A stretch of 64,000 bases of DNA from Pseudolabrys sp. (GTDB lineage Bacteria; Pseudomonadota; Alphaproteobacteria; Rhizobiales; Xanthobacteraceae). The notes under the pieces were generated by a model. It was not told the origin of the DNA. It saw only the letters and a list, made by a program, of their open reading frames with translations, and ran no database searches. Location: the NCBI GenBank assembly GCA_025929185.1, contig JAICMO010000001.1, forward strand, positions 1 through 64,000. Direction: 5' to 3'. Below are positions 1,149 through 53,727 of this stretch, piece after piece (within the stretch, counting starts at the first letter, position 1; each line of letters opens with the position of its first letter). A program made the translations under genes and the position numbers.

Positions 1149-3632
1149 ATGCCGGTCACGCGCGGCCAAAGAATTCAACGAGAAGACGACGAGTTAGACA
1201 TACTTCTCTCGCTGCATGCCATTGCGCTGGACGGCATGACCGACGGAATTTGCGTGCTCGACAGCGAACTCAGAATCGTACTTTTTAATTCTCGGCTGCT
1301 CGAAATTACCGGCTCGCAACCGAATTCGGTTAAGACCGGAACCTCATTGCGTGGCATACTCGAAGAGCTGAGATCGGATCAATCTGATTCATTTTCTTCG
1401 GCCGCACAAATGTGGCGGCACCTGCAAGAGGCCCTTCGGCAAAGAAAAACCTTTGAAGTCGATCGACGCAACGCGACCGGCGCTATGATTCGCATCCAGT
1501 GGCGGCCGGTCGCCGGCGACGGTTGGGTATCAACCTGGCGCCCGATTTCGGGAGAGTATTTGCAACACGACTTGGAGGCACAATTCAGCCGTCTAAGGGA
1601 AGCGTTCGCAAACAGCACGCGCGGCGCCTGCCTCTATGATGCACAGAAACGCCTGGCTGCATACAACGATCAGTATCTCAAGATATACGGATTCGAACGA
1701 GGCGACGTCAAATTGGGTATGTCCTACAAGGATATCCTCGCCCTCGCGATAAGGCGCGGGATTTACGCGGATGTGACCCCAGAGGATCTGCTCCAAAGTC
1801 GCGACGCATTATTCACGACGGAGCCCGCGACGCGAAGCATCAACTTGACCGACGGCCGCGTTGTCCAACTCACGGTTCATCCAATCGGCGAGGACGGATG
1901 GGCGTGCGATTACGAGGACATCACAATACGCGTGCGTCACGAGCGGGAATTGCAGGAGCACAATCAACTGCTCGACGCGGTGCTGTCGCACATGACTCAC
2001 GGATTGTGCGCATATGATCAAAATCTCCGTGTTATCGCCGTTAATCGGCGTTACCTCGAAATTTATGGATTGACCGAGGCCGAAGCGCGTCCAGGCACCT
2101 CATTGCTCGATTTGATGGCGGGAAGCATTGCCCATGGAGTTCACCGCCCCGGCATAACCGCGGAAGAAATGTTCCTGGATTTCAAGGCTCGCTTAATCGA
2201 GAACAAGGAGCCGGTTCTTCACCGCACGTTGGCGAACGGCCGGATTATAGCCGTTCGCCATCAGCCCATGGCAAACGGGGGCTGGGTTGGCACGTATGAA
2301 GACGTTACCGAACGTGCGCAGGCTGAAGAAAACATTTCGCGTATGGCGCGGCATGACGCGCTGACCGGACTGCCAAATCGCGTTCTGTTCCGTGAGCAGA
2401 TGTCCGAGGGCTTGGCTCGGGTGGAAAGCTACAACGGCACGATGGCAGTCATGTACCTCGATCTCGACAATTTCAAGACGATCAACGATTCGCTGGGACA
2501 TCCGACGGGCGACAAGCTTTTGCAGGAGGTGGCGTCCCGACTCGGCGCCGCGGTTGGCAGGGGAGATACGATTGCGCGGCTCGGCGGCGATGAGTTCGCC
2601 ATTTTGCATCCTGTCGAGGATGACAACGATATCGATCTCCTCGCGCGGCGGCTGATCAATTCGGTTTCGGATCCCATTCTTGTTGACGATCACGAGCTGA
2701 ATACCAGCATCAGTATCGGGATTGCCATCGCCCCGGACCACGGGAATTCGAGCAATCAGCTGATGAAGTCCGCCGATCTCGCGCTCTATCGCGCGAAGGC
2801 GCAGGGTCGCAACAATTATAAATTCTTTGAGCCGGCCATGGACGTCCAATTACAAGCGCGTCGGGCCCTCGAAACCGATTTGCGCCGCGCTCTTTCTGCC
2901 GGAGAGTTTCATCTGGTCTATCAGCCGCAGATCAGCCTCGCTACAAACAAACCGGTCGCAATTGAGGCTCTGCTGCGTTGGAATCATCCCGAACGAGGAC
3001 TGGTGGAGCCTGCAGAATTTATTCCGGTGGCGGAAGAAACCGGCTTGATCGTGCCGCTCGGCCAGTGGGCGCTTCGGCAGGCTTGTTCTGACGCCGCGCG
3101 GTGGCCATCCGGCATCAGGGTAGCGGTCAATCTGTCGCCGGCGCAATTCCGCCCCCGTGGGCTCGTGTCGATGGTTACGCAAATCTTGGCGGCGACAGGC
3201 TTGCCGGCCCACCGGCTTGAATTGGAGATAACCGAAGCATTGCTCATGCAGCAGGACGAAAGCAGCGTGAACGCGCTGCATCAGCTTCGTGCGCTTGGTC
3301 TGCGGATTGCAATGGATGACTTCGGAACGGGCTATTCATCGCTGAGCTACTTGCGAAGCTTTCCCTTCGACAAGATCAAGATCGACCAATCATTTGTTGC
3401 CGGCGGCAGCAAGCGGCTGCAGAGCGAAGCAATTGTCCGCGCTGTCGCGGAGCTTGGGTTGAGCCTTGGAATTGAAACGACCGCTGAGGGAATCGAAACG
3501 GACGAGCAACTAGACCTCGTGCGTCGCGCAGGATGCGCCAACTGGCAGGGATATCTCGCGGGACAGCCCTGCGGAGAATCGGAGATTGTCAAAGTGATCA
3601 CGCGGTTGAGCCGGAATGCGGCCGCCGCCTAG
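1149..3632 (+). CDS. PAS-domain bifunctional diguanylate cyclase/phosphodiesterase (GGDEF-EAL)
   Basis: RLGGDEFAIL GGDEF motif, AIEALLRWNHPERG and DDFGTGYSSLSYLRSFPFDKIKIDQSF EAL motifs, three PAS-like repeats in the N-terminal half. Confidence 0.95.
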   Translation: MPVTRGQRIQREDDELDILLSLHAIALDGMTDGICVLDSELRIVLFNSRLLEITGSQPNSVKTGTSLRGILEELRSDQSDSFSSAAQMWRHLQEALRQRKTFEVDRRNATGAMIRIQWRPVAGDGWVSTWRPISGEYLQHDLEAQFSRLREAFANSTRGACLYDAQKRLAAYNDQYLKIYGFERGDVKLGMSYKDILALAIRRGIYADVTPEDLLQSRDALFTTEPATRSINLTDGRVVQLTVHPIGEDGWACDYEDITIRVRHERELQEHNQLLDAVLSHMTHGLCAYDQNLRVIAVNRRYLEIYGLTEAEARPGTSLLDLMAGSIAHGVHRPGITAEEMFLDFKARLIENKEPVLHRTLANGRIIAVRHQPMANGGWVGTYEDVTERAQAEENISRMARHDALTGLPNRVLFREQMSEGLARVESYNGTMAVMYLDLDNFKTINDSLGHPTGDKLLQEVASRLGAAVGRGDTIARLGGDEFAILHPVEDDNDIDLLARRLINSVSDPILVDDHELNTSISIGIAIAPDHGNSSNQLMKSADLALYRAKAQGRNNYKFFEPAMDVQLQARRALETDLRRALSAGEFHLVYQPQISLATNKPVAIEALLRWNHPERGLVEPAEFIPVAEETGLIVPLGQWALRQACSDAARWPSGIRVAVNLSPAQFRPRGLVSMVTQILAATGLPAHRLELEITEALLMQQDESSVNALHQLRALGLRIAMDDFGTGYSSLSYLRSFPFDKIKIDQSFVAGGSKRLQSEAIVRAVAELGLSLGIETTAEGIETDEQLDLVRRAGCANWQGYLAGQPCGESEIVKVITRLSRNAAAA

Positions 3633-3671
3633 GGCATGATTGCTTTGGATTGAATCGTCTCAATGTCTTCG

Positions 3672-3748
3672 GCGTCACCCGCGGGCTTGACCCGCGGATC
3701 CATCTCCTTCGTAAAGATGGATTGCCGGATCAAGTCCGGCAATGACGC
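3672..3748. repeat. Intergenic palindromic repeat element
   Basis: Nested inverted repeats: CCGCGGG-cttga-CCCGCGG, ATCCATCT-ccttcgtaa-AGATGGAT, ATTGCCGG-atcaagt-CCGGCAAT, bounded by GCGTCA/TGACGC. Confidence 0.8.
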
Positions 3749-3825
3749 TGCGGCGAGCGGCGCTTCCGTTGTAAGCGATCATGCTCTAGGGCAGTGTTTG
3801 CTTAAGCCGCAAGCAGAGCCTGCCG

Positions 3826-5736
3826 CTAATCTTCCAGATTGGGCTTGGCCATATCCTCAGCCAGAACCCGTCCCGCCTTTTTGCTTACGATATAATCTTC
3901 CAAGGCCAGCAGATCGATATTGGTTGAAAGAAAACATCGGATTGCATCCTCGGGGGTGCATACGATGGGCTCGCCGCGCACGTTGAATGACGTATTCAAC
4001 ACCACCGGAATTCCTGTCCGGCTGCCGAAAGCGGCAATGACCTTCCAGAACGAACCGTTGATGTGGCGTTCGACCGTCTGAATGCGCGCGGATCCATCGA
4101 AGTGAACGACGGCCTTGACCTTCTCGCGCCCGGCAGCACGAGCGGGCACGACAAATTCCATGAAATTCGAACGGCCGACGCCGTCCATATCGAAATATTC
4201 ATCCGCAATCTCGGCAAGCGCGGCGGGGGCGAATGGCCTGAACTCCTCGCGAAGCTTCACGCGCTGGTTGACGATCTCGCGCATGTCGGCGCTACGCGGA
4301 TCCGCCAGAATGCTGCGATTTCCGAGCGCTCGCGGCCCGAACTCCATTCGGCCGCGAAACCATCCAACGACCTTACCTTCGATCAATGCGTCTGCAACGA
4401 CTTCCTCGATATGATCCGCTCGATGGAAATTCAGCTTTTCCGCGTTCGTTTGAAGGGCTTCGAGGACCCGTTCATTGTCATAAGCGGGGCCCAAACTCAT
4501 CGACGCCACGGCTTTATGTAGCGGAGGGCGCTTCAAAACATGATGATACACATATTGCGCGGCGCCGACGCTCGCTCCGTCGTCGCCGGAGGCAGGAAAG
4601 ACGTACGTTTGCTTGAACATGCCGGAGCGGGCGAGCTTGCCCGTCATGACGACATTGAGGGCGACGCCTCCCGAGAGGCAAATTCGATCGACATCATGGT
4701 TTTTCTTTAGCTGTTCCAGCCTGCAAAAGACTGCTTCTTCAAGTCCGGCCTGCAACGCAGCTGCAATGTCCATTTCGCGCTGCGTAACGGCTTCGGCATA
4801 TCCTCGCGGCGGTCCGAACAAGCTTTTTACATGCTCGCCGAAATCGTCCCGTAACAAGACCGTCGTTCTGCACGATCCATCGGCTGCTGTTTCGAGCAAT
4901 CCGTCGATCTCTTTCCGGTAGGTCTTCGGATTGCCGTAAGACGCGAGCCCCATGACCTTGTACTCGCCGTCTAAGGGCCTGAAACCCAAAAAGGCGGTCA
5001 TCATCATGTACAACACGCCCAGCGAGCCCGGCAGCATGGTTTCTTCTACGAGCTCGATGCCGCCGGCCGTCCCAATCGCGAAAATCGAGCTCGACTTTTC
5101 GCCGAATCCGTCAATGGTGAAGATGCCGGCCTCCGGATATCCGGAAGAATAAAATGCTGAAGCGGCATGCGAGAGGTGATGCGGAACGAAATGGATCGTC
5201 GGCTTTTGCTTGCGCTCTCCGAACAGTTCATCGATTTCCGCTAAAATGCTCTCATTCGATACGGTGCCGTTGTAGACAGCGCGGTAGCCGGAAATCACCC
5301 GATCTTTGATTTTGCTCGACAGATAAGGCTCAACCGCTTGTATCCTTTGCGCCAGAGCCGCATCGTTGAAATCGCAATAAAAGGCGAGGTGATCGACATC
5401 CTCGATGCCGGCGCCGTTTTGCGAAAGACAAAATTCAACCGACCGGCGCGGAGGTAATATTTTGCCCCCCGCGGCCGTCGAATGCTTGAAACGGTTGAAA
5501 CGCTCCTCAGCAGCTGCCGCGGTTAATTGACCGTCGCGCAAGACGGCGGCCGCGCTATCGTGGCCGACCCCGTCAAGCGGGAAAAGGTTAAGCGGCAAGT
5601 CTTCGACATCCTCTCCAAACGAGGTAATCGAGTCGAAAATAAGGGGATGAGATTGTGAATGGCGGAGCCGCGACTGCAGTTTGTGGCCCGATTTCCATCC
5701 GTGCCTTTGGTGGCCAGCATAGCCTAGGATGAGCAT
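3826..5736 (-). CDS. Carbamoyltransferase, NodU/TobZ family
   Basis: HDSAAAVLRDGQLTAAAAEERFNRFKHS, VPHHLSHAASAFYSSGY, RGRMEFGPRALGNRSILADPR, VLNTSFNVRGEPIVCTPEDAIRCF motifs. Confidence 0.92.
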   Translation of the reverse strand: MLILGYAGHQRHGWKSGHKLQSRLRHSQSHPLIFDSITSFGEDVEDLPLNLFPLDGVGHDSAAAVLRDGQLTAAAAEERFNRFKHSTAAGGKILPPRRSVEFCLSQNGAGIEDVDHLAFYCDFNDAALAQRIQAVEPYLSSKIKDRVISGYRAVYNGTVSNESILAEIDELFGERKQKPTIHFVPHHLSHAASAFYSSGYPEAGIFTIDGFGEKSSSIFAIGTAGGIELVEETMLPGSLGVLYMMMTAFLGFRPLDGEYKVMGLASYGNPKTYRKEIDGLLETAADGSCRTTVLLRDDFGEHVKSLFGPPRGYAEAVTQREMDIAAALQAGLEEAVFCRLEQLKKNHDVDRICLSGGVALNVVMTGKLARSGMFKQTYVFPASGDDGASVGAAQYVYHHVLKRPPLHKAVASMSLGPAYDNERVLEALQTNAEKLNFHRADHIEEVVADALIEGKVVGWFRGRMEFGPRALGNRSILADPRSADMREIVNQRVKLREEFRPFAPAALAEIADEYFDMDGVGRSNFMEFVVPARAAGREKVKAVVHFDGSARIQTVERHINGSFWKVIAAFGSRTGIPVVLNTSFNVRGEPIVCTPEDAIRCFLSTNIDLLALEDYIVSKKAGRVLAEDMAKPNLED

Positions 5737-5922
5737 ATCACCTCAACAAGAGACGTTATTGCCGATTGCAAAATGTAATGCTGTTTACCAATCGGAGCAT
5801 TTTATCGACTTGTCATCTTTAATTCGGTACAGGGGATGGGTTAAAATTTTACATTAACGGATGGGGCCTGCCGGCCCTCTTAAGGTTTTCGGGCCGCCGA
5901 ACCGCAAGCGGGGATCCCATCT

Positions 5923-6897
5923 ATGGGTAATGGGGGCAGTAACGCCGGGGGGATGGACGGCGCAGAGAACAGTCTACTGCTGCCTATTCTGAGTTCGGCC
6001 ACGGCCAGCGTCATCACCGGCACCGCGCTAGCCACGACCCGGTACGTCGTATCGCAGACGGACGGCTTGTCGGTCGCGATGCTGCGCTATGCCTTGGCTG
6101 CCGCGTGCTTGTTGGCGTTGTCGCTGGCCTTTTACCGGGTTCATGTGGCGAAGAAAGATTTCGTTATCATCGCTATTTTCGGGGTGCTCTACTTTTGCAT
6201 TTTCCCATGGTGCATCAGCGTGGCAATGCAGTTTGTCACCGCATCCAGCGGCGCGATCGTGCTGACCTGTACACCGGCGATAACCCTCGTTCTAGCGACG
6301 CTGCAAGGCAGCGAGAATTGGTCGAAACGAAAGGTCCTCGGAGTTCTCTTGGCGATTTTCGGGGCCGCGGTTGCGGTCGGCCACGGGGCGGCCGATTTCA
6401 ATGGAGTCGGCTGGTTCGGCTACGCGCTGATGATCTTTGCGACACTCTGCGGCGCCGTCTATGCGGTATTCTCAAAGCCTTATCTCGCCAAATACCCGCC
6501 TGTTCTGGTCACCGCGATCGCGATGGTGGCGGGGGCGACGGCGCTTTTCGCGTCGTGGCTGGTCTTGGATTTTCCGACAGGGATGCCTCACTTGACGCCT
6601 CTAGGGTGGCTCGGGATTCTTTATATCGGCGTCGGGGGCGGTGCTTTGTCTTTCTTCCTTTACGCCTGGTCGCTCGGCCGCACCGCCCCGACCGCGACCA
6701 TGATATCTCTGCCGCTCAACCCGATTGCCGCAATTCTCGCCGGCGCAGTGGCTCTGAACGAGCATATTACGCCGGCGCTTTTCATCGGATTTTGCTTCGT
6801 CGTCTCGGGTATGTATCTCGTGGTCAGCCGCAAAGATGGCGGTGGAATGAAAGCCACCGAGGCTAAGGAGAGGATTCATGAAATTCCTCTTGCTTAG
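5923..6897 (+). CDS. DMT superfamily (EamA) transporter
   Basis: About ten hydrophobic helices in two repeated halves; PLNPIAAILAGAVALNEHITPALFIGFCFVVSGMYLV is a typical EamA C-terminus. Confidence 0.88.
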   Translation: MGNGGSNAGGMDGAENSLLLPILSSATASVITGTALATTRYVVSQTDGLSVAMLRYALAAACLLALSLAFYRVHVAKKDFVIIAIFGVLYFCIFPWCISVAMQFVTASSGAIVLTCTPAITLVLATLQGSENWSKRKVLGVLLAIFGAAVAVGHGAADFNGVGWFGYALMIFATLCGAVYAVFSKPYLAKYPPVLVTAIAMVAGATALFASWLVLDFPTGMPHLTPLGWLGILYIGVGGGALSFFLYAWSLGRTAPTATMISLPLNPIAAILAGAVALNEHITPALFIGFCFVVSGMYLVVSRKDGGGMKATEAKERIHEIPLA

Positions 6898-8488
6898 CAA
6901 CGTCAACGTACAACCGCTCGTGTCGGCGCTTAAGCCGTTCGAAGTTGTTCCGGGGGCTTACAACAGCATGCTCTCGGAGCTTTCGATTGCAAATTCGCGC
7001 GCCTCAGCAAGCGAGATCAGCCACGTTATCTCCGTCTTCGATAGCGATAGCCTGATGGGAGATGCTTTTTACGGCGGCGGGAAGCCAGGCCAGTGCGACA
7101 CGTTTCTCGACGCGCTTGAGCAATTTTGCTCCCGGCACCCCGAAAAGATCGTTGTCGCAAACTCGTTTTGCCTGAGTTCGTCTCGTTGGCTCAGCTTTGC
7201 GGATCTGACTCACGCCGATTCGATCAAGTGCCTCGAGGCATCGCTCAATCAGCGGCTGATCGCGATCGCAAAGGAGCATTCGAATCTGGTTGTTTTCGAC
7301 ATGGAGCTTCTGTTTCGCCGCCATGGCGAAGATGCGCTGATATCGAACGCGATGTGGTATGCAGGCCGCATAAGATACACCGCACGCATGTTCGAGTTGC
7401 TTTCCGCCTCGATTCGCGGCGCGCTTGCGGCGCACGCTCAACAGAGTCGAAAAGTGCTCATTCTCGACCTCGACAACACGTTGTGGGGTGGCGTCGTCGG
7501 AGAGCTTGGCTGCCACGGAATAGCGCTGGGCGAGGACGGCACGGCGCGCTGCTATCGCGATTTCCAGCGCTCGCTAAAAGCGCTTCAACGAACCGGCATC
7601 TTGCTTGTCATTGCGAGCAAGAACAACGAGTCCGACGTCGACGAGGTCTTTGAGCGCAACTCGTCGATGCTATTAAAGCGCGAGGACTTTGCCGCCGTTT
7701 GTGCGAATTGGCGTCCCAAAGTGGAGAACATTTCGGAAGTCGCCCAACTGCTAAATCTCGGAACCGAGAGCTTTGTTTTTATCGATGACAATCCGGTAGA
7801 ACGGGAAGCGATCCGCAAATTCATGCCCGAGATTGCGGTGCCCGAATTTCCCGATCGTGTCGAGAATTTGCAAACGTGGTTCGTGCGGGAGGTGGTGCCC
7901 GTCTATTTCGGGAAATATGCAATTACCACCGAGGACAGGGCGAAGACGGAGCAATACCGCGCCAACATGGCTCGGAAAAAACTGGCGCAGAGTTTCGACC
8001 TAGACGGCTATTTGGCCGAGCTCGGCATCGAGTGCGATATTCGCATCGATTCAGGAGCGGACTTGGTTCGCGCCGCTCAGATGACGCAAAAGACGAACCA
8101 GTTCAATCTCACGACGCGGCGCTACACGGTAGCCGACCTTGCGCGTTTTGTTGAAAGTGCCGAGCATGCGGTGTTGATGCTCGACTACCGGGATCGTTTC
8201 GGCGATGAGGGCTCCGTTGGACTTGCGATTCTTGATCTTGGCCAAGGGCAGATCGATACGTTTTTGGCGAGTTGCCGTGTGATTGGTCGCAAAGTTGAGG
8301 ATCACTTGCTGGATAAAGCTATCCAGCTTTGCCGCGGCCGAGGTTTCAGCAGAATTATCGGGGAATACATCCCCTCGCGAAAGAACGAGATTGCCGCCTC
8401 GTTTTATGAAGATCACGGATTCAAGCTGGTGACGAGACATCCGAACGGAAGCATTACGTACGAAAAGGCGATCGATGCAGAATACTAA
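6878..8488 (+). CDS. HAD-IIIC family phosphatase, FkbH-like (glyceryl-ACP forming type)
   Basis: KVLILDLDNTLWGGVVGELG, LLVIASKNNESDVDEVFE, FVFIDDNPVEREAIR HAD-IIIC motifs; C-terminal GNAT-like segment SFYEDHGFKLV. Confidence 0.93.
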   Translation: MKFLLLSNVNVQPLVSALKPFEVVPGAYNSMLSELSIANSRASASEISHVISVFDSDSLMGDAFYGGGKPGQCDTFLDALEQFCSRHPEKIVVANSFCLSSSRWLSFADLTHADSIKCLEASLNQRLIAIAKEHSNLVVFDMELLFRRHGEDALISNAMWYAGRIRYTARMFELLSASIRGALAAHAQQSRKVLILDLDNTLWGGVVGELGCHGIALGEDGTARCYRDFQRSLKALQRTGILLVIASKNNESDVDEVFERNSSMLLKREDFAAVCANWRPKVENISEVAQLLNLGTESFVFIDDNPVEREAIRKFMPEIAVPEFPDRVENLQTWFVREVVPVYFGKYAITTEDRAKTEQYRANMARKKLAQSFDLDGYLAELGIECDIRIDSGADLVRAAQMTQKTNQFNLTTRRYTVADLARFVESAEHAVLMLDYRDRFGDEGSVGLAILDLGQGQIDTFLASCRVIGRKVEDHLLDKAIQLCRGRGFSRIIGEYIPSRKNEIAASFYEDHGFKLVTRHPNGSITYEKAIDAEY

Positions 8489-8702
8489 GTTGCAGACGGC
8501 AATTGAGATTGTTGTAAAGGCGCTCGACGTTCCCCCAGATGATATCGGACCTGAGTCCTCGATCGAGAACACTCCGGCTTGGGATTCGATGGGGCACATG
8601 AGCGTGTGCCTGGAGTTTGAGCGGCGCTACGGGAAGGCACTCGCGCTCGAGAACATTATAGCGACGGCGAGCGTTCGCGACCTGGCGGCGATGATTCCTT
8701 GA
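8475..8702 (+). CDS. Acyl carrier protein (stand-alone)
   Basis: 75 aa; phosphopantetheine-site-like WDSMGHMSVCLEFERRYG; overlaps the FkbH-like gene by 14 nt. Confidence 0.9.
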   Translation: MQNTKLQTAIEIVVKALDVPPDDIGPESSIENTPAWDSMGHMSVCLEFERRYGKALALENIIATASVRDLAAMIP

Positions 8703-40892: not shown

Positions 40893-42077
40893 TCACGATA
40901 ATTTAGCCAGTTTGGCATGACGTTGCTCCATGATGAGGGCCGCCAAAAGGCCCAAGCTGAAGCCGCCCACCAGGGAAAGGGCGATCGTGAAGAGTACCTT
41001 GGGTGAGCTCGGCGTAAGCGGCGGAAGCGCTTCGGTTACAATGCGGGCGTCCGTCACAGGAAAGGATTGTTGCTGAATGGTTTGAACGTAGCGGCTGAGA
41101 AATCCCTCGTATATCGATTTGTAGGTCTGTGCCTGAGCATCAAGTTCGCGCAGTCGAACTTGGCCTTCACGGGTAGCCGCAGCATTTTCCGATTTAAAAG
41201 TTTCGACAGTCCGGAATGCATTGCTCATCTGCCGTGACAGCTCTTGGATGCGGTCTTGAAGCCAAGCTCCGGCTTGTCGGCTCTGCTCGATCCGTGCGTC
41301 CAGCTGATCCTGAATATACGCCTTTGCCACCTCGTTAGCGATCTTAGCCGCCTTATTCGGATTGACCGACGTAAATGCAATTTCGACTACGTAGCTTTGA
41401 CCCAATCGGCGGACGCTCAAAACGCGTTTGAACTTTGCCAGCGCTCGCTGCAATTTTTCATTTTCGAGATTTTCTCGTGAGGAACGGCCCAACAGATCGA
41501 AGCTTAAGGCAGCTTTGAAGTCGCTCAGCAGGCGCCTGACGGTTGCTATGGTGGGGCGAGTGTTGTCATTTTGCAGGGCGTCAATGCTTGTACTCGCAGA
41601 TGTCAGGAACTGATTTCCCGTGAATTCCGGATCCTCTTCGAGTTTGAGTTTCTGTATTACCGAAAGTGCGATCCGCTCCGCCTTTATTGTCTCGACTTGG
41701 CTTTCCACAACGGCAATGTCGACGAGGGCATCTGGAGCCGTTTCACTTTGAAAGCCATGAGACCGCTTGGTATCCACGACGAGGGCTGCGATCGCCGTGT
41801 AGCGCGCCGGAGCGACCGCCAAATAGAGCAATCCCATACAAAGGAAAAAGCCAACGCACGCGGCAATAACCAATTTGTGCCGCTGCAACAGATTCCAGAT
41901 CAAGAGCAGCGGCCAGTTGTCACGTGGACGATGCTGTTGGACGAAAACGGGCGTCTCTCCCCGTTTCGCCGTCATCAGCATTGGGTCAACCTCGATCTGT
42001 TCACGTGCCGATGCAGCATCATTATTGGCTGTTCGAGTGCGTGTTGGCGCTGTCTTTTTGCTCGGCGTCGCCGACAT
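40893..42077 (-). CDS. Wzz/GumC-like polysaccharide co-polymerase without a tyrosine-kinase domain
   Basis: Two TM segments flanking a coiled-coil periplasmic region; YVVEIAFTSVNPNKAAKIANEVAKAYIQDQL; start uncertain. Confidence 0.88.
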   Translation of the reverse strand: MSATPSKKTAPTRTRTANNDAASAREQIEVDPMLMTAKRGETPVFVQQHRPRDNWPLLLIWNLLQRHKLVIAACVGFFLCMGLLYLAVAPARYTAIAALVVDTKRSHGFQSETAPDALVDIAVVESQVETIKAERIALSVIQKLKLEEDPEFTGNQFLTSASTSIDALQNDNTRPTIATVRRLLSDFKAALSFDLLGRSSRENLENEKLQRALAKFKRVLSVRRLGQSYVVEIAFTSVNPNKAAKIANEVAKAYIQDQLDARIEQSRQAGAWLQDRIQELSRQMSNAFRTVETFKSENAAATREGQVRLRELDAQAQTYKSIYEGFLSRYVQTIQQQSFPVTDARIVTEALPPLTPSSPKVLFTIALSLVGGFSLGLLAALIMEQRHAKLAKLS

Positions 42078-43368
42078 ACTCTGTCCTAATCGCCACTTCG
42101 ACAAGATCGCCGGGTTGAAGTTCGGTGTACTCCTCCGCATCGATGCGCTCACGATGCCCGCCGGCAGTTCGGAAGATCACGAGCTTTGGTCGCCCGCTTT
42201 CGCCATGAGCAAGCTGCGATCGAAGTATTCCGGTATATGCAAGCTTCTCTTTAACGCCTTGTATTTGAGAGCTCAGCTTCTCAAGGTTGACCTTCGCGTC
42301 CTCCAGTTCGCGCACCAGCGTCGATCGTCGCTCTTCAGGCAATTTCTGTAGTTTCCGATTGAGGTCCTGCCGCTCCCTGACAGCTTGGCCGAGCATCGAC
42401 CCGGTCTGCAGAGCGCTCGTGGAAGAAAGCAGCGCCATGCGACGAGCCTCGGTAACGCGTGTGAAGGGAAGCGTGCCTTTCTCCGACAGCGTCCGAATTC
42501 TCTTGAGTTCGTCAAGATCGGCACCAGCCCCGTCCTGCTCTTTTCGCTCTTGATCGGACAAGGTTGTGACGCGTTTGGCTACGGAGTTGATAGCGTTCTG
42601 AAGATATGATTTTTCATTTTCAAAATCGGTCGATCGAAGCCTAAGCTGCTCCGCCTCCGCCTTGGCGATGTCATTCAGGATAGAAAGCGGAACTTGTGGA
42701 ATATCGACCGCCTTATTTTGGTCCAGAGCGCTTTTGTTGTTCTGCAATTCTGCTTGCAATCGGAGCGTGATCGCGAATTGCTTCGCGTACTCCAACTGTA
42801 GCGAATGCAGCTGACTGTTGAAATCTGCGGCGTCCAGAAATGGATTATTCATGCGGAACCGCATGATCTCGTAGCCGCCGGCGAGCGCGATTGCCTGGTG
42901 AACCGTCATTCCCGGTCGATATTCCTGCTCTCCCGGCTTGCTGACGTCTCCATTGAGGTAAACCGGCCGATATTGCGCGACCTTCAAATTGATTTCGTCA
43001 GGTGCAATGACGATCGGATATTCTCGTCCCTCTGGTGAGCGGCGGCGAAACACCTTGGTTGGCAACAGCGCTTGGATTTTTGAGCGCAGATCGGCGAGCG
43101 TTAAACCCGCAGCCGGAAGCTGACCGAGAAGCGAAAACGAGACCTGGCCGTCGAGGCCGATCATGCTTTTTTGGCCAATATCGGGGACGCCGGCCGCCGA
43201 CAATTCGACCACGTCACCGCGTTGTAGATGATACTCCGCTTTGGCCGGCCAAAACGGTGTGAGTACGGCGAAGAATAGGACCAACCAAGCGGCCCTTGAC
43301 GGCACGGTCGGCGCTCGAAATGCGGGACGCGAAAAGCCGGTCATTGCGGCCACGATCCGATCCTCCAC
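42022..43368 (-). CDS. Polysaccharide biosynthesis/export protein (ExoF/Wza OPX-like)
   Basis: YHLQRGDVVELSAAGVPDIGQKSMIGLDGQVSFSLLGQLPAAGLTL and VYLNGDVSKPGEQEYRPGMTVHQAIALAGG SLBB-like segments. Confidence 0.9.
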   Translation of the reverse strand: MEDRIVAAMTGFSRPAFRAPTVPSRAAWLVLFFAVLTPFWPAKAEYHLQRGDVVELSAAGVPDIGQKSMIGLDGQVSFSLLGQLPAAGLTLADLRSKIQALLPTKVFRRRSPEGREYPIVIAPDEINLKVAQYRPVYLNGDVSKPGEQEYRPGMTVHQAIALAGGYEIMRFRMNNPFLDAADFNSQLHSLQLEYAKQFAITLRLQAELQNNKSALDQNKAVDIPQVPLSILNDIAKAEAEQLRLRSTDFENEKSYLQNAINSVAKRVTTLSDQERKEQDGAGADLDELKRIRTLSEKGTLPFTRVTEARRMALLSSTSALQTGSMLGQAVRERQDLNRKLQKLPEERRSTLVRELEDAKVNLEKLSSQIQGVKEKLAYTGILRSQLAHGESGRPKLVIFRTAGGHRERIDAEEYTELQPGDLVEVAIRTEYVGDAEQKDSANTHSNSQ

Positions 43369-43648
43369 GCGTCAGGGGAACTTAACGGCCGCCCGGATGC
43401 TTCCAGCATCCGAGCAATTTGCCGTTTTGTCGTGCGACTGGGCTGAATTGGATTCCCCATTAGCGTGAGGCTTAAAACGCGTATTGCGGTCCTCTGGTTC
43501 CATGATTCTCCGCTGTCAGGGTGCATTTGACCCCCGTTATAGGTGCGCCCGGGGCGGCGCGAATTGCGATCGGTCATAAACCTCGGCACACCCGTGTTGA
43601 ATAGTTCCCATCGTCTGGAAGGCCCCGTTTGCCGGGGCGGATGAGGAT

Positions 43649-44428
43649 ATGACGATGTCTGAAGAGCCGGTGCGCCGTGTGCCACGTGCATTGATCGGGG
43701 GCATCTCAATTGCCGCGCTAAGTCGCGCAGAAACCGCAGATTTGATCATCGCGACGGCGGGTAGGCGGACGCGCCGCCGCGGGCCGCCGCCGTTGTTTAC
43801 CTCGGCGAACGGGGAGGTTCTGTCTCGTTGCGCTCGTTCGACCGAGATTCGGAGACTGTTCTGTGACGCCGATCTCGTGAGCGCAGACGGACAGCCGCTC
43901 GTTTTTGCCTCTCGTTGGCTTTCACAGCGCCCATTGGTTGAGAGGGTTGCGACGACGGACTTGTTTCATGACGTTGCTATCCGTGCTGCCCGCCGGAAAA
44001 TGAGTTTTGCGTTCTACGGCGCAACCGAAGGGGAATGCCAGGCCGCGGTCGACAACGTCCAGCGTCATTACCCGGATGTCCGCATACTGATCCACTCGCA
44101 TGGTTTCCTGGATGATCGGCAGGAATTCGAATTTGTGAAAAAGGTTTCGAAGCTGAAACCGGATATTCTCTGGGTGTGTCTCGGCATTCCGCGCGAGCAA
44201 GCTTTCTACTACCGCAGACGACAGGTTCTGCGGGGTGTCGGCTTGATCAAAACCGGGGGTGGCCTGCTGAACTTCCTCTCAGGCACGGCCAGTCGTGCGC
44301 CGCTCATTTGGCAAGTTAGTGGCTTCGAGTGGCTTTATCGTCTCCTGCGTGAACCTCGTCGGCTTTTTTGGCGTTATGCGCTGACAAATCCACATTCGCT
44401 GATGTTGTTAATTACACAAACGCGATAG
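43649..44428 (+). CDS. WecG/TagA/CpsF family glycosyltransferase
   Basis: LFTSANGEVLSRC, DADLVSADGQPLVFASRW, DILWVCLGIPREQAF, GVGLIKTGGGLLNFLSGTASRAP. Confidence 0.92.
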   Translation: MTMSEEPVRRVPRALIGGISIAALSRAETADLIIATAGRRTRRRGPPPLFTSANGEVLSRCARSTEIRRLFCDADLVSADGQPLVFASRWLSQRPLVERVATTDLFHDVAIRAARRKMSFAFYGATEGECQAAVDNVQRHYPDVRILIHSHGFLDDRQEFEFVKKVSKLKPDILWVCLGIPREQAFYYRRRQVLRGVGLIKTGGGLLNFLSGTASRAPLIWQVSGFEWLYRLLREPRRLFWRYALTNPHSLMLLITQTR

Positions 44429-44448
44429 CGGCTATGGACAGATTCTGA

Positions 44449-45435
44449 ATGCTGAGCTCGAGCTTCGCGCAAACCGACCTCCCGATGGAACCTAGCGCTC
44501 AGATATCGAGCGTAATCTGTATTCCGACGTTTCGTCGCCCCGAGCTTCTTCGCCAAACGCTCCGATCCCTCGTAGCATTGTCCGAAACACCGCGATACGG
44601 ATGTGTTGTCGTCGATAACGATGTAATCGAGCGGGCTGGTGCTCGAGTGGTTGCCAAAATGACATTCGGCTCAATGCCGGTCATGTGCGCTGTCGAGCCG
44701 TCTCAGGGGAACTGCCAAGCAATTAATACCTGCTTTCGTCTCGCACTGTCGCGCTTTCCCCGGGCCGAATACATCCTGATGATCGATGACGACGAGTGGG
44801 CATCTGAGCGATGGCTATTTTGGATGATTACTGCGGCCGAGCTGTCGGGGGCCGACATCGTTGGCGGCCCCGTGTTTCCTGTTTTTTCAGACCCGAGCAA
44901 GCAACACCTAGCCCACCATCCCGTATTTCGTCCTGCATACGATTGCACCGGCGAGGTCCCTACGATCTATGGGACCGGAAATTGCCTCATCCGCAGAAGC
45001 GTGTTCGAAAAGATGGGTGATTCTCCCTTAGACGAGGCATTCACATTTCTTGGAGGCGGCGATACCGATTTCTTTTTGCGATGCGCGCGTGCAGGTTTGC
45101 GATTCTTTTGGGAGCAACGTGCCGAAATCTTCGAACATGTCTCACCCGAAAGGACTACCACACGATGGGTGCTGGCCCGCAGTTTGCGGATCGGAGCGAT
45201 CAACTATTGTGTCGATCGGAAGAAAGGAGGCTTGTACCGATATCGCACTTTCGTGACAATGAAATCAGTAGCGGTGTTGGCGAAATCGATCATTGAGTTC
45301 GTCCCCGCGTTGATCAGAAGCCGCAGCGTGATTATTGCGTCGCATGGCGCCTTTGTCGCGCTGGGACGTCTGCTTGCCGAGGTTGGTCTCGTTCCTCAGC
45401 AGTACAAGAGTCGAAAAGTGCCAACAGGACAATGA
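44449..45435 (+). CDS. Glycosyltransferase family 2
   Basis: VICIPTFRRPELLRQTLRSL, EYILMIDDDEWASERWL. Confidence 0.93.
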   Translation: MLSSSFAQTDLPMEPSAQISSVICIPTFRRPELLRQTLRSLVALSETPRYGCVVVDNDVIERAGARVVAKMTFGSMPVMCAVEPSQGNCQAINTCFRLALSRFPRAEYILMIDDDEWASERWLFWMITAAELSGADIVGGPVFPVFSDPSKQHLAHHPVFRPAYDCTGEVPTIYGTGNCLIRRSVFEKMGDSPLDEAFTFLGGGDTDFFLRCARAGLRFFWEQRAEIFEHVSPERTTTRWVLARSLRIGAINYCVDRKKGGLYRYRTFVTMKSVAVLAKSIIEFVPALIRSRSVIIASHGAFVALGRLLAEVGLVPQQYKSRKVPTGQ

Positions 45436-46727
45436 CCGCCACATCTGCCCAGGAATCATCATGGATCGCGGAAGACGCGGGCGTTCTGGTCCGATCTACG
45501 CTGTTCGTGACCGTCTTTTTGCTAGAGCTGTTGACGCTGCACCCGTTTCCAAGCCTTTCAAATATTGCACTGCTCGAGGCCTGGGAGGCGGGCGATACGC
45601 TCAATCAAATCGTGTACATCAGCCTTTTGGCGGCGGTGCTGATCGTTGCGAGCCGCATCTCGTCCTCAACCCTCTATAGCCTGTTCGGTCGAACCACCAT
45701 TGCGACGTGGATCTGGTTTGCTGCGACGGTGATTTGGTCGAATGATCCGGACCTTTCGGTAAGGCGGCTCGGGTTTGTGATCGTGGTGATGATTACGGCA
45801 GCCTGCGTCCTTCTGCTGCCGATCAGTCTTCGCCACCTCAGCATGCTGCTCGCGACCATAGCAGGAATAACCCTGATCCTCTGCTACTTCGGCGTGGCGC
45901 TCCTTCCCGACCGCTCGATTCACCAAGCCACCGACTATATCGAGCCTCAATTGCATGGAGATTGGCGCGGCTTTTTTGGGCACAAGAACGGAGCCGGCGC
46001 GGTCATGACCATCATGATATTCACCGGGCTCTTCGTGGCACGCACACTGTCAATTCCACTGGGAGTGAGTATTGCAACTGGGGCATTCGTGTTTCTAGTC
46101 TTCTCGCACGCAAAGTCCCCGTTACTGATCTTTCCTGTTGTGATGCTCGTGTCGCTGCTGTGCGGCTTCTGCCGGAGCGCAGCCTGCAAATTCGTGATTG
46201 CTGTCACTCCTTTCATCATCTTCAACGGAATTGGTGTTCTGGGGTCGTATACGGGGTTGCTCGGAGATATCGTTCCCTACGTTCTTAAGGACCCGTCCTT
46301 TACAGGCCGTACCGACGTCTGGAACTTCGCCATTGCACATCTGACCAGCCATCCTTTGACGGGAAGCGGCTTCTTCGCGTTTTGGCGAACGGATGACGTT
46401 TATTTGAGCAACGTCCACGGGATTTGGGCCAACCGAGCATCGAACAGCCATAACGGCATGTTGGACCTCACGTTGACCACGGGCATCGTAGGTCTTGCAC
46501 TGGTGATGATGCTTTTGGTCGTTAATCCGGTTCGGAATTTTCACAATTGCTTGCCGCTGGATGCAAACCGAGAATTGTCGACGTACTTGTTTAAAATTGC
46601 TATGTTCGGGCTTTATCTGAATTGCTTTGAAAGCGTTGCATTCGATCGCGGCAGCGTGGTGTGGTTCTTCTGGATTTTTGCCGTTTTTGGCCTGCGCCTG
46701 TCAGCTCGCGTTCCCCTCGCTATGTGA
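45432..46727 (+). CDS. O-antigen ligase/polymerase family protein (Wzy/ExoQ-like)
   Basis: Multi-TM; WRGFFGHKNGAGAVMTIM, GRTDVWNFAIAHLTSHPLTGSGFFAFW, SNSHNGMLDLTLTTGIVGL. Confidence 0.9.
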   Translation: MTATSAQESSWIAEDAGVLVRSTLFVTVFLLELLTLHPFPSLSNIALLEAWEAGDTLNQIVYISLLAAVLIVASRISSSTLYSLFGRTTIATWIWFAATVIWSNDPDLSVRRLGFVIVVMITAACVLLLPISLRHLSMLLATIAGITLILCYFGVALLPDRSIHQATDYIEPQLHGDWRGFFGHKNGAGAVMTIMIFTGLFVARTLSIPLGVSIATGAFVFLVFSHAKSPLLIFPVVMLVSLLCGFCRSAACKFVIAVTPFIIFNGIGVLGSYTGLLGDIVPYVLKDPSFTGRTDVWNFAIAHLTSHPLTGSGFFAFWRTDDVYLSNVHGIWANRASNSHNGMLDLTLTTGIVGLALVMMLLVVNPVRNFHNCLPLDANRELSTYLFKIAMFGLYLNCFESVAFDRGSVVWFFWIFAVFGLRLSARVPLAM

Positions 46728-47849
46728 CCTATCCTTTCCCAGGATGCGGCGGGCAAAGCGGTCGATGCTTTGATGCCGCCGGATCGTATCCTTCGCCCGA
46801 TCATATGCGACAAGAGGCCAGCCGCGCGACGAGAGCGCGCCAGTGAAGGCAAACAAGGGACTTGGCTTGGCGCCAAGACGGCGCTTGTAGGCTTGATCTC
46901 CGATGGAAAAATCAAAATGGCGGAATCCTTGAGATTGCAGCATTTGCATCGTTCTCACGATTACCAGCCGGCCAGGGGAGCAGTGTGCCCACTCTCGATC
47001 ACCGCTCGAGAGGCGAACCATGACAAAGCTCTTGTTGTGTTTTAGACCAAGGAGAGCCGAGACGATCTCTTCACCTTGCATAAGAGCAGTCAATACGACG
47101 CTATCCGCGGCGATGCCATCCGCGGCAAGGGTCCGGTAGAAGTTTGTGATGTGCGGCTGATCGAGGAGATAGCGACAACCTCGACCTGCAAAACGCGCGC
47201 GCTGATGTTGCTCGATTGCGGTCATAACGCGGTCGATTTCGACAGGATCGGTGATTTGCCGGAATGCCGCACCCTGGTGCCTTTCGAACAACCGCCAACT
47301 GCGGCGCAACTCCTTCCGAAACATCCGCTCCAGTGAACGGAGATAGGTGCTCCAGTCATCGATGACCACGGAATTGCCGCGAACGGCGCAGCTCAGTAGC
47401 GGGGAGACCAGACCGAAAGGATTTACATCTGCTTCGACCCGGTGTGGCATCTTTGTGAGTCGAATAACGTCGTCTTTGCTCAATGCCGAACGCAGCGCGG
47501 CCCAAAGCTCCTTTGCTTCGGCGGGAGTGGTGGGAGCGGCAGGCCCCAGCACCGGAAAATTGTAATCGCTCACGCCGCCGTCCGCGAACTCGACGACTCG
47601 CAGACCGGCAGTTCGGCGGCGGACAAGAGGCAATATTGCTGCGACCGAGCCGGTGCTCCGATGGGTGACCGTGGCAAGCAGCGGTTCGCCCAGTGCGGGG
47701 CCGATGGTTCGGTACCATGATTTTAGAAAAATGGCGCTTTGGAATGCCGTGGCATTGCCCGCCAATTCCGGCTCCGGCAAGCACTCTGCGATGCGGCCGG
47801 CATCCGTCTCGAGGCTTACATGGAAGCGAGAGGCCGCACCCGAAAGCAT
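46701..47849 (-). CDS. GNAT/FemAB-like acyl- or aminoacyl-transferase (CelD/BcsL-like)
   Basis: SAIFLKSWYRTIGPALGEPLLATV; RRSWRLFERHQGAAFRQITDP; GRLVIVRTMQMLQSQGFRHFDFSIGDQAYKRRLGA. Confidence 0.85.
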   Translation of the reverse strand: MLSGAASRFHVSLETDAGRIAECLPEPELAGNATAFQSAIFLKSWYRTIGPALGEPLLATVTHRSTGSVAAILPLVRRRTAGLRVVEFADGGVSDYNFPVLGPAAPTTPAEAKELWAALRSALSKDDVIRLTKMPHRVEADVNPFGLVSPLLSCAVRGNSVVIDDWSTYLRSLERMFRKELRRSWRLFERHQGAAFRQITDPVEIDRVMTAIEQHQRARFAGRGCRYLLDQPHITNFYRTLAADGIAADSVVLTALMQGEEIVSALLGLKHNKSFVMVRLSSGDREWAHCSPGRLVIVRTMQMLQSQGFRHFDFSIGDQAYKRRLGAKPSPLFAFTGALSSRGWPLVAYDRAKDTIRRHQSIDRFARRILGKDRSHSEGNAS

Positions 47850-47855
47850 CGCCGG

Positions 47856-48983
47856 TCACCGTCTGCCTCTATATCGAAAATATTCGATGACAGAGTACAG
47901 CGGCTTTGGACGCATATTTCTATCGAACGGAAGTGGACGGTTAGGCAGCTTATCCGCACGAGTGAAATATATGGGCACCCAAGTATACTTATCCGTGATC
48001 CCCCAGGTTAGAACAGCCGGTGGTGCCGCAACCCCACACACTACATCGAGAAACTCATATGCTTTTGCGGCGACCAGCGCATCTCGCAACTGAATATCGG
48101 CCGGCAGGCTGAAGTCGATCACGTCCAGTTCGGTAACGATGACCTCGAGGCCAAGGCTGCTGATCGCGTGCAGAAATTCCTGCAATCCAACGGAGTCGAT
48201 CTGCCGGTCTGCGTTGATATGTGCCTGAATGCCGACACCATGTATCGGCACTTTGTTATTGACGAGTTCTCGGACGAGGCCAAGGAGTGCGTCGCGCTTG
48301 GATTTAAATCGTGAACCGGCAAACGCAATATCGTACTCATTTATGAAAAGACGTGCGGCCGGATCGGTTTCATGCGCTATCCGAAAGGCAAGCGGGATGT
48401 ACTCTCGCCCGATCTGCTCAAGCCATACTGATTTGCGAAGATCATGGGAGGAGCGCGGATCGTCCGGGAAAGGTTCGTTGACCACATCCCATGAGCGGAT
48501 CGTGCCAGCGTATCGGCCAACGACAGTCCTGATGTGCTGCTCAAGCACCCGCTCAGCTTCTTGGCGCGACGCCATGTCTTTTGTCCAAGCAGGAAGGGCG
48601 GCGTACCAAGCCAGCGTGTGCCCACGCACCCCAATTCCGTGGCGCTTTGCAAAATCCACCACGGCATCCGCCTTATCGAAATTAAAAACGCCTCGCTTCG
48701 CTTGGATGCTTGCCCATTTAAGTTCGCCCTCTGGAACGACCAAGTCGCAATAGCGCGCCACCAGCTCCTGATACGGGTGATCGGTGATCAGCGCGGGAGT
48801 GCGCACGGCGGCGCCATAAAGGAAGTTCGACTGCGAGCTTGCAGGCATTCGTCTGGCAGGCGCCTCAGATTGTGCGAGTGCCATACGGCCTGAAGCCGAT
48901 GAAATGGAAAGCGTAGAGGCGGCCGTTCCAGCGGCGAGAGAACCAAATACAAACTGTCGTCGAGTGTTTGTCATCAGAAGCAA
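47856..48983 (-). CDS. Glycoside hydrolase family 10 (endo-1,4-beta-xylanase-like) with Tat-like signal
   Basis: RGHTLAWYAALPAWT, IRSWDVVNEPFPDD, VIVTELDVIDF catalytic motifs; NTRRQFVFGSLAAGTAAS leader. Confidence 0.92.
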   Translation of the reverse strand: MLLMTNTRRQFVFGSLAAGTAASTLSISSASGRMALAQSEAPARRMPASSQSNFLYGAAVRTPALITDHPYQELVARYCDLVVPEGELKWASIQAKRGVFNFDKADAVVDFAKRHGIGVRGHTLAWYAALPAWTKDMASRQEAERVLEQHIRTVVGRYAGTIRSWDVVNEPFPDDPRSSHDLRKSVWLEQIGREYIPLAFRIAHETDPAARLFINEYDIAFAGSRFKSKRDALLGLVRELVNNKVPIHGVGIQAHINADRQIDSVGLQEFLHAISSLGLEVIVTELDVIDFSLPADIQLRDALVAAKAYEFLDVVCGVAAPPAVLTWGITDKYTWVPIYFTRADKLPNRPLPFDRNMRPKPLYSVIEYFRYRGRR

Positions 48984-48992
48984 TCAATCACC

Positions 48993-49961
48993 TTAGATGT
49001 ACCCAATCGTTTTTCTCATGATGTCTTCGCCGACGGATCGCAATCGTTGTGCAGGCGTGATCGTTCGTTTGTGATCGACACGCAGCGCAGCGGGCAACAT
49101 GGCAATCAACTCGGTCGGGCAGATGCCAGCATGACTTTGAACGACCGCGAACAGACCGGGATCGTTGCATCCGAAGCACGACCCTGCATCCCAGTCATCG
49201 CCCGCAGCCCAAACGTTTGAAGCGCACAGTAAACGCGCGTGCCGAGCGGGCGGCACCGCATGCAGTTGATCGAGCAAACCGTAGTGCTCGGCTACGAGGT
49301 GATAAAGCGTGTATTCAGTCCAGTTAAGATTTATGTTCTTCAGTAGGGTAACTGCCCAGTCCGAGTGGTATAGAATCTGGACGTGATCGAATAATTGTTT
49401 GCAAACCCGGCGCGCCAGAATTGCGGGTGTCACGGACATCCCGGGCACTGTTAAATCAGCGTTCAGATGCAGTAGTTGAGCTGATCCACGCCACCACTCA
49501 GCGTGAACCGCCCTTGGTTCAGGTTCCAGAATCGCCTTACCATCGATTAGTATTTGCTCAGCAGATAGTGGTTTGCACAGAATGACGTCCGGGTCGAGCG
49601 TGAGATAGAACTCGGTATCAATAACATTGGCCGCATATAGTTTGATGAGTTGTTGTCGAAACCAGCCGCTGGTTCTTCTGTATTGATGGAATACAGGTAG
49701 AAATTCGTCCTCAGCCACAATGGTCAACGGCAGGTCGGACCAGCAAGAAAGCGACTTTTCGACGCGTTTCAGTTCGCGCGACGGCACCACGACTAAAATC
49801 GTGCTAAAAAGTCCGGGTGCCGCGTAGGTGCGCAGGGAAGCAAAAAGAATGTCGCAACGCGCTAGATTCGATAGATAATGTCTGCCGAAGGTTTTTAGCG
49901 GCAACACGGCGGCTAAACGCGCGACCACGGGTGTGCTCCCCGCCGTGACGATGAAGTCCAT
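48993..49961 (-). CDS. DUF6492-like protein (putative glycosyltransferase-like)
   Basis: SGWFRQQLIKLYAANVIDTEFYLTLDPDVILCKPL with a DxD-like DPDVI motif. Confidence 0.7.
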   Translation of the reverse strand: MDFIVTAGSTPVVARLAAVLPLKTFGRHYLSNLARCDILFASLRTYAAPGLFSTILVVVPSRELKRVEKSLSCWSDLPLTIVAEDEFLPVFHQYRRTSGWFRQQLIKLYAANVIDTEFYLTLDPDVILCKPLSAEQILIDGKAILEPEPRAVHAEWWRGSAQLLHLNADLTVPGMSVTPAILARRVCKQLFDHVQILYHSDWAVTLLKNINLNWTEYTLYHLVAEHYGLLDQLHAVPPARHARLLCASNVWAAGDDWDAGSCFGCNDPGLFAVVQSHAGICPTELIAMLPAALRVDHKRTITPAQRLRSVGEDIMRKTIGYI

Positions 49962-50888
49962 TCACATCTCAAGAATTGCGCCGGGCGTCGATTTGTCGAG
50001 GCGGAATTCGATTCGTCGATGAGAGGCTTTCTTGGCCTTTATCCAATCTGAGTTACGCAACATCTTCTGTAGAAGCGCTTTTGACCAGAAGAGCGGGCCA
50101 GTCGTAGCGTCGCTCTCGGGGTTGAGGCCAAAGCGGTAACGCAGGATTCCATTTGCTAGAGTGACCATTTGCTTGCGACGCACGGCCTCGGTCACAAAGT
50201 CAAGTGTCAGCGAAACATTAAGGCAATCGTAGTTGTCGATGCGATGCGGCGCCGTATGGGGCCAGTACAGCATCTGCCCCGGATCAAAGTCGAATACGCA
50301 GGCATATTCGTCATACCACCGCGAATAGGGGATATCGACTTCCAAGCCGTATATTGCGATGTGCTCCAGGTCCTCGGCCCGAATGAACGGCTCGTGCGGC
50401 GGATAAAAGTAGACGCGCTTGCGACCTATGAGCTGAAAGAGCGCATGAGCGGGAAGGTCCGCGTGGTAATAGACTTGTGCATTCGGAGAAGAGACCAGAA
50501 TTCCGCACCGATGATTCCACGTCGCAAGCCCTGGCACGAGTTTGTGCAGCTCGGAGAATATGGTTTCTGCCATTCTGCCGATTTCCGGAGCGACCTCGCC
50601 GACGTTACGTAGGTTGAGCCAAAGCCGGCCGTTGGCGATAGCCGATATAACGTCCTGCCCGTTCAGCCCGCCGAGATCGCCTTCCCGCCAGAACCGGCGG
50701 TCGGTCTCGCGATTGCCCATGTGAATGATGCTGTAATTCTCGCGCGGATAGCTCTCTATCAGACGTGCAAGCGCATCCAGCGTGAACTCGGGCAACTCGT
50801 GGAGCCGATGCCCGATGCAAATCGGAGCCTGATTCCACAGGGCAGCATGCTTGCTTTCCCAACCGCAGAGTAGCCGCTCGTCGTGCAT
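49962..50888 (-). CDS. JmjC/cupin-like putative Fe(II)/2-oxoglutarate oxygenase-fold protein
   Basis: VYYHADLPAHALFQLIGRKRVYFYPPHEPFI and GQMLYWPHTAPHRIDNYDCLNVSLTLDF resemble the HxD...H cupin_8/JmjC arrangement. Confidence 0.7.
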   Translation of the reverse strand: MHDERLLCGWESKHAALWNQAPICIGHRLHELPEFTLDALARLIESYPRENYSIIHMGNRETDRRFWREGDLGGLNGQDVISAIANGRLWLNLRNVGEVAPEIGRMAETIFSELHKLVPGLATWNHRCGILVSSPNAQVYYHADLPAHALFQLIGRKRVYFYPPHEPFIRAEDLEHIAIYGLEVDIPYSRWYDEYACVFDFDPGQMLYWPHTAPHRIDNYDCLNVSLTLDFVTEAVRRKQMVTLANGILRYRFGLNPESDATTGPLFWSKALLQKMLRNSDWIKAKKASHRRIEFRLDKSTPGAILEM

Positions 50889-50906
50889 GGCCGCCTCCCG
50901 TCGTCG

Positions 50907-53624: not shown

Positions 53625-53727
53625 GGACCTGCAGACGGCGGATCACACGTTCTGTCGTGCTACCGAATATCGCAACGGTGCCAAAGGACGGCGCATTGTG
53701 CTTCCCGTCTGGCGCAGAGGCGTGATT

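Follow-up and report, generated by a model that had tools for sequence, protein, structure and literature searches.

FkbH proteins and their acyl carrier proteins (ACPs) are known mainly for the supply of polyketide building blocks. This raises the question of what such a pair does in Pseudolabrys sp., where it lies within a small, apparently transferable block, beside genes for an O-carbamoyltransferase, an EamA exporter and a PAS-GGDEF-EAL protein. The block is found in the 64,000-nucleotide stretch analyzed here (hereafter, the window), which comes from a draft genome of 3.6 Mb in 281 contigs. We give an even chance to the proposal that these five genes form an accessory block, moving as one transferable unit, in which a glyceryl-ACP would be the acyl donor for a common product that is also carbamoylated and exported.

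Gene content and inheritance of the block

The block spans positions 1149-8702 (about 7.6 kb). Its order is the GGDEF-EAL gene (forward), the carbamoyltransferase gene (reverse) and then the EamA, FkbH and ACP genes (all forward), as listed in Table 1. The EamA and FkbH genes overlap by 20 nt (6878-6897) and the FkbH and ACP genes by 14 nt (8475-8488), and a strong ribosome-binding site, AAGGAGAGG, is present 5' of FkbH. The initial annotation had described four genes at this locus. Their coordinates and both overlap lengths match the open reading frame (ORF) calls, and the four family assignments are confirmed by Pfam and NCBIfam scores. The gene set proposed there is a real unit, but it is larger than four genes because the PAS-GGDEF-EAL gene (1149-3632), which was overlooked, travels with the other four.

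The FkbH protein was used to scan about 85,000 bacterial and archaeal genomes. Of the 80 loci obtained, one (L062, with an FkbH 67% identical) has the four genes together. A second copy (G636/L160) came from a survey of the family Xanthobacteraceae, in which L062 was found again as G641. The block is present in 3 of the 399 sampled genomes of this family, all three being metagenome-assembled genomes (MAGs) of uncultured organisms and belonging to two genera. L062 and L160 come from Xanthobacteraceae MAGs of another genus than the window and present the same five genes in the same order and orientation. Amino acid identities to the window are about 70% for the carbamoyltransferase, about 57-58% for EamA, 65-67% for FkbH and 41-47% for the ACP. 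The four-gene arrangement is not due to chance, since the same genes are found in the same orientation in two other genomes; the initial annotation would have been refuted by genes not conserved together, and this was not the case. Regarding the co-occurrence of the four families, they are kept together in the block carriers, but they do not co-occur widely, as three Xanthobacteraceae MAGs are the only genomes in which the block was detected.

The PAS-GGDEF-EAL gene is located tail-to-tail with the carbamoyltransferase gene in all three carriers; in G636 this linkage was established from a pair of contigs sharing about 608 bases within the carbamoyltransferase gene. Full-length orthologues of this protein (961-990 bits) were found only in the two other block genomes, and the best match elsewhere, among 26 other genomes of the two genera, reached 613 bits over part of its length. 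The ratio of nonsynonymous to synonymous substitution rates (dN/dS) was 0.08-0.14 between L062 and G636 (four genes) and 0.09-0.28 between the window and L062 (five genes), which shows that the block genes are under purifying selection. A carbamoyltransferase with more than 44% identity was found in no other of the 44 genomes of the window's genus, and an FkbH orthologue is absent from 18 of 20 genomes of the second genus. The block is a genuine five-gene unit, inherited as one.

In the second genus, the block has an indolepyruvate-oxidoreductase-like gene on one side and a class II aldolase gene on the other (flank names read from the sequence and partly checked against libraries). These two flanking genes are adjacent in three congeners (L227, L228 and L233), where the site is empty, and the homology of the congeners to both flanks stops near the block edges (about 3624 and 11849 in L062). 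The window block sits at another site, between unrelated neighbors, and the block was apparently acquired as a transferable unit. At the window's own locus no empty site was found, and none of 19 congeners has a close orthologue of the threonine dehydratase encoded downstream; no tRNA is present in the window's first 12 kb. Base composition was also considered as a sign of horizontal gain. The block has a guanine plus cytosine content of 56.4%, against 60.7% on its right, yet this difference is not evidence by itself because values as low are reached elsewhere in the window over stretches of 7.5 kb. Likewise, the idea that the GGDEF-EAL gene was a resident of the integration site was rejected, as the L062 copy is 57% identical over its full length to that of the window, versus 40-44% over part of the length to those of the congeners.

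Distantly related GGDEF-EAL genes were observed beside the same flanks in six other genomes (Table 1), and this stretch is variable among the congeners. Moreover, the spacer on which the GGDEF-EAL and carbamoyltransferase genes converge contains palindromic repeats, spotted by eye, that resemble repetitive extragenic palindromic elements, with two copies at L062 6590-6720 and another palindrome at window positions 3680-3760. Shared regulatory motifs were sought in the regions upstream of the GGDEF-EAL gene and of the EamA operon, and nothing convincing was found.

Table 1. Positions of the block genes, functional residues and other features mentioned in the text
Feature	Sequence	Positions	Strand	Remarks
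PAS(x3)-GGDEF-EAL gene	Window	1149..3632	+	827 amino acids; fifth block member
O-carbamoyltransferase gene	Window	3826..5736	-	636 amino acids; ORF call
Divergent intergenic region, carbamoyltransferase/EamA operon	Window	5737..5922	.	Putative divergent promoters; weakly conserved, no motif claimed
EamA gene	Window	5923..6897	+	324 amino acids; in-frame ATG at 5953 equally possible as start
FkbH gene	Window	6878..8488	+	536 amino acids; ORF call
HAD motif I of FkbH (D197-L-D199)	Window	7466..7474	+	Invariant in 26-sequence alignment
Cys466 codon of FkbH (SCRVIGR)	Window	8273..8275	+	Candidate acyl-thioester cysteine; invariant
Stand-alone ACP gene	Window	8475..8702	+	75 amino acids; ORF call
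Ser38 codon of ACP (WDSMG)	Window	8586..8588	+	Expected phosphopantetheine attachment site
Exopolysaccharide (EPS) cluster	Window	42025-54849		Polysaccharide export protein, glycosyltransferases, O-antigen ligase-like, GNAT (46704-47849), deacetylase (50910-52034), flippase-like
GGDEF-EAL gene at the second-genus site	L229	771-3173		
GGDEF-EAL gene at the second-genus site	L230	4688-7387		
GGDEF-EAL gene at the second-genus site	L231	865-3564		
GGDEF-EAL gene at the second-genus site	L236	4776-7751		
GGDEF-EAL gene at the second-genus site	L237	4776-7535		
GGDEF-EAL gene at the second-genus site	L238	817-3264		

The FkbH-ACP pair and its relatives

FkbH enzymes form glyceryl-ACP from 1,3-bisphosphoglycerate and a carrier protein (PMC7489565, PMC3679948). 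The window protein belongs to this family, with a TIGR01686 score of 289.3 bits against a cut-off of 146.65. It is composed of an N-terminal alpha/beta domain (residues 1-186), a HAD-IIIC domain (about 190-345) and a GNAT-like C-terminal domain (about 356-530), and the same three parts are seen in its AlphaFold model, whose mean predicted local distance difference test (pLDDT) value is 86.8. The top match in the PDB is 3slr (BF1531 from Bacteroides fragilis); for the C-terminal part, the matches are GNAT folds. Residues D197, D199, S247, K281, D303, D304 and C466 are invariant in an alignment of 26 sequences, and the window FkbH retains all the residues that are invariant across it. Concerning the ACP, the PP-binding domain (PF00550) scores 27.9 bits (gathering threshold 20.8), and the WDSMG motif with Ser38 is conserved, as expected for a partner of FkbH; an ACP directly 3' of FkbH is found in 74 of the 80 related loci. 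Since FkbH keeps the HAD residues and Cys466 and the ACP keeps Ser38, glyceryl-ACP formation by this pair is supported by homology, and the first step of the reading given in the initial annotation is plausible. A second, distant FkbH (35% identity) is encoded in the same genome (L042 6802-8745, G000:C26), in an apparent sulfotransferase/methyltransferase/VOC neighborhood where no adjoining ACP was detected.

In a tree of 29 FkbH proteins, the window and the two other block members group together (support 100/97), followed by Reyranella (100/99) and then by two actinobacterial MAGs (97/93). Neither a carbamoyltransferase nor an EamA gene was detected adjoining FkbH in these Reyranella and actinobacterial relatives. 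Instead, polysaccharide deacetylases are located beside FkbH-ACP in Reyranella (L063/L064) and in L066, and the DUF3473 part of such an enzyme in the Acidimicrobiia locus L065. Upstream of the pair, L065 encodes a weakly GNAT-like protein, for which the similarity is marginal in L066. One step further out in relatedness, L067 has the gene of an AAC(3)-type N-acyltransferase beside the pair. It should be noted that the L066 FkbH groups with an Acidimicrobiia MAG and that its gene content is unlike that of Bifidobacterium, so the name Bifidobacterium breve given to this genome is doubtful.

Most FkbH-ACP pairs in the relatives surveyed occupy glycan-type contexts. Those of Bacteroidales (L068-L141, mostly from rumen) lie in glycan-type clusters with genes for KAS III (54 of the 80 loci), VOC (52), DegT aminotransferase (47) and PglD-like acyltransferase (42), according to gene names read from the sequences. 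In addition, the Sinorhizobium meliloti pSymB plasmid encodes an MBOAT acyltransferase, an ACP and FkbH in one stretch (L239 10301-15335) near capsular polysaccharide genes. The loading of glycerate by FkbH on carrier proteins outside polyketide synthases (PKSs) has been described, including an esterification in vioprolide (PMC8949500), and glyceryl loading has been proposed for suomilide (PMC13122637). Furthermore, a dedicated ACP has been predicted to feed the N-acyltransferase of an O-polysaccharide sugar (PMC6519341). A literature search, with subscription journals mostly outside its coverage, returned no paper on the widespread sugar-acylation setting of the Bacteroidales pairs, none joining FkbH, polysaccharide and carbamoyltransferase, and none on FkbH-like proteins and O-antigen or on FkbH, ACP and capsular polysaccharide.

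Carbamoyltransferase, exporter and c-di-GMP enzyme

The carbamoyltransferase contains both domains of its family, Carbam_trans_N (PF02543, 175 bits) and Carbam_trans_C (PF16861, 235 bits), and its residues 57-625 align with the structures of NovN (9s2t, E = 3.9e-101) and GdmN (7vx0, E = 6.8e-98). Residues H186, H190, D209 and D385, which we take to be the equivalents of the metal-binding residues of TobZ, are retained and are invariant in 33 sequences; the C-terminal motifs are retained as well. The possibility that this enzyme is NodU was rejected, with 143 bits for the equivalog model against a cut-off of 1000, and there are no nodABC-like genes in the block.

The enzyme also presents an N-terminal insertion of about 48 residues (about residues 9-57), which precedes the HDSAA motif. 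The same insertion, conserved in both L062 and L160, is absent from the other carbamoyltransferases compared, being private to the three block members. A plasmid-wide search with the N-terminal segment that bears it gave one weak match (85% coverage, 33% identity), and the remaining matches were partial and mostly to the ordinary carbamoyltransferase core. The insertion could not be placed in the structure because the AlphaFold model of the carbamoyltransferase (two sequences) has a pLDDT of only 31.

The EamA protein (PF00892, 112 bits) matches this family in two stretches, which corresponds to the two-repeat architecture of EamA/DMT transporters. In the fifth protein the EAL (240 bits), GGDEF (166 bits) and PAS_7 (218 bits) domains were recognized, and the GGDEF (residue 479), EAL (606) and DDFGTGYSS (723) motifs are intact, so this protein is predicted to participate in the turnover of cyclic dimeric guanosine monophosphate (c-di-GMP).

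Possible product of the block and comparison with known systems

The likeliest reading is that glyceryl-ACP donates its acyl group to a sugar or comparable acceptor, the product of the block being carbamoylated and exported as well. By homology, FkbH would take the glyceryl unit of 1,3-bisphosphoglycerate and strip its phosphate, and the glyceryl would be transferred via Cys466 onto the ACP's phosphopantetheine arm, giving glyceryl-S-ACP. This activated three-carbon hydroxyacyl unit could then acylate an amine or hydroxyl of a sugar or small acceptor, rather than entering polyketide chemistry, with either an unlinked acyltransferase or FkbH itself, through its GNAT-like domain, as the catalyst. 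A sugar-like acceptor is likely because of the deacetylase, N-acyltransferase and MBOAT settings of the relatives, in which the neighboring deacetylases and the AAC(3)-type enzyme point to acylation of an amine or hydroxyl. As is usual for its class, the carbamoyltransferase would transfer the carbamoyl group of carbamoyl phosphate to a hydroxyl, presumably of the same product; the EamA protein may export or flip this small product, and the PAS-GGDEF-EAL protein might couple its production to c-di-GMP, as co-inheritance suggests. The substrates, the order of the steps and the single common product are what we infer here.

Several points weigh against this proposal. The block contains no acyltransferase, glycosyltransferase or acceptor-making gene, it is rare, its three copies all come from draft genomes, and the identity of the ACP between genera is low. 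Besides, the FkbH-ACP pair does not need a carbamoyltransferase or an exporter, because the sister pair of Reyranella (61% identical) lacks both. The decoration of a sugar or small molecule, suggested in the initial annotation, finds support in the glycan-type settings of the nearest FkbH-ACP relatives but not in the gene content of the block itself. A more specific version can only be offered tentatively: the block might be a transferable cassette for an undescribed pathway in which glycolytic 1,3-bisphosphoglycerate would be converted into glyceryl-ACP, the glyceryl would go to an acceptor that is carbamoylated by an enzyme with a new N-terminal element, and the product would be exported under c-di-GMP control.

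The FkbH and a stand-alone ACP constitute the first step of both classical routes to PKSs, the supply of methoxymalonyl or hydroxymalonyl extenders and that of tetronate precursors (PMC7489565). However, queries for KAS III, ketosynthase, acyl-CoA dehydrogenase and phosphopantetheinyl transferase gave no homologue (E<=1e-3) in the 64-kb window, L062, L160 or L064, and the FabH/KAS III-like enzyme of the tetronate operon has no match in the window, L062 or L160. The block also lacks the two dehydrogenases and the O-methyltransferase of the methoxymalonyl-ACP subcluster, and no 3-hydroxyacyl-CoA dehydrogenase is encoded within it. A role in polyketide supply was rejected, as the partner genes are lacking, and it is hardly credible. 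On the other hand, the pair could serve a surface polysaccharide encoded elsewhere, for example by the EPS cluster of the window, with the carbamoyltransferase modifying the same glycan as in Nod factors. The polysaccharide deacetylases adjoining the sister pairs and the pSymB stretch would fit this possibility, as would the deacetylase and GNAT of the EPS cluster, at about 34 kb from the block. Nevertheless, the counterparts of these two proteins in the two other carriers are only 34-35% and 24-25% identical, respectively, as in block-free congeners, and the block supplies its own exporter, of small-molecule type, which makes this explanation rather unlikely. Coupling to the window's own EPS cluster in particular is not supported by co-occurrence, and close orthologues of its deacetylase and GNAT are missing from the other carriers and from the related genomes searched.

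It is also conceivable that the carbamoyltransferase acts directly on the 2- or 3-hydroxyl of the ACP-bound glyceryl, so that the block would yield a small carbamoylated derivative of glycerate, to be exported by EamA after its release. Beyond a release step, this would need no gene outside the block, and the private N-terminal insertion could serve to recognize a carrier protein or another unusual substrate. However, the known members of the NovN/GdmN/TobZ/NodU family act on sugars and macrolactams, no thioesterase is present, and the poor model of the enzyme leaves the insertion without a position, so we consider this route improbable. Still more doubtful is that the five genes are inherited together as passengers, each with a function of its own, and that the glyceryl-ACP and carbamoyl steps never meet. 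Carbamoyltransferases and FkbH-ACP pairs are each widespread without the other, and the exporter and the GGDEF-EAL protein belong to generic families, but order and orientation are kept across two genera and at two different chromosomal sites, and the EamA, FkbH and ACP genes overlap or nearly so.

Regarding the acyl-donor proposal, what is new is the way in which the genes are combined and behave as one transferable unit, rather than the lack of a ketosynthase. The searches and the gene content agree with the initial annotation in that ketosynthase, oxidation and O-methyltransferase genes are lacking, but the missing ketosynthase, presented there as a peculiarity, is not unusual because other FkbH-ACP pairs lack one too (Reyranella, Acidimicrobiia, Campylobacterota, Niveispirillum and S. 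meliloti). The unusual feature is that an FkbH-ACP pair is joined with an insertion-bearing carbamoyltransferase, an exporter and a c-di-GMP enzyme, and with no acyltransferase in the block. If glyceryl-ACP widely acylates sugars, glycerate-derived surface chemistry would be commoner than annotated, and if the cassette exists as outlined, a glycerate-derived small molecule or glycan mark would be made without any ketosynthase. With its five genes, the block is compact enough to be expressed in another host and studied by metabolomics.

Among the known systems, the block resembles FK520 FkbH and the tetronate proteins Mad7/Mad8 in its FkbH above the TIGR01686 cut-off, with the HAD residues and the cysteine, and in its overlapping stand-alone ACP. 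Unlike those modules, it has no KAS III, dehydrogenases, O-methyltransferase or PKS and carries a carbamoyltransferase, an exporter and a GGDEF-EAL protein. It would share with the FkbH domains of vioprolide and cystomanamide and the BslA loading module of suomilide the use of a glycerate thioester as acyl donor and not as extender, although FkbH is there a domain of a nonribosomal peptide synthetase, whereas in the block FkbH and the ACP stand alone, with no assembly line. The Reyranella locus L063/L064 provides the closest FkbH outside the block, also with an overlapping ACP, but a deacetylase is found there in place of the carbamoyltransferase, EamA and GGDEF-EAL genes. Finally, the carbamoyltransferase has both domains and the metal-binding residues in common with NovN, GdmN, TobZ and NodU, and differs from them in falling below the NodU model and in carrying the N-terminal insertion of about 48 residues.

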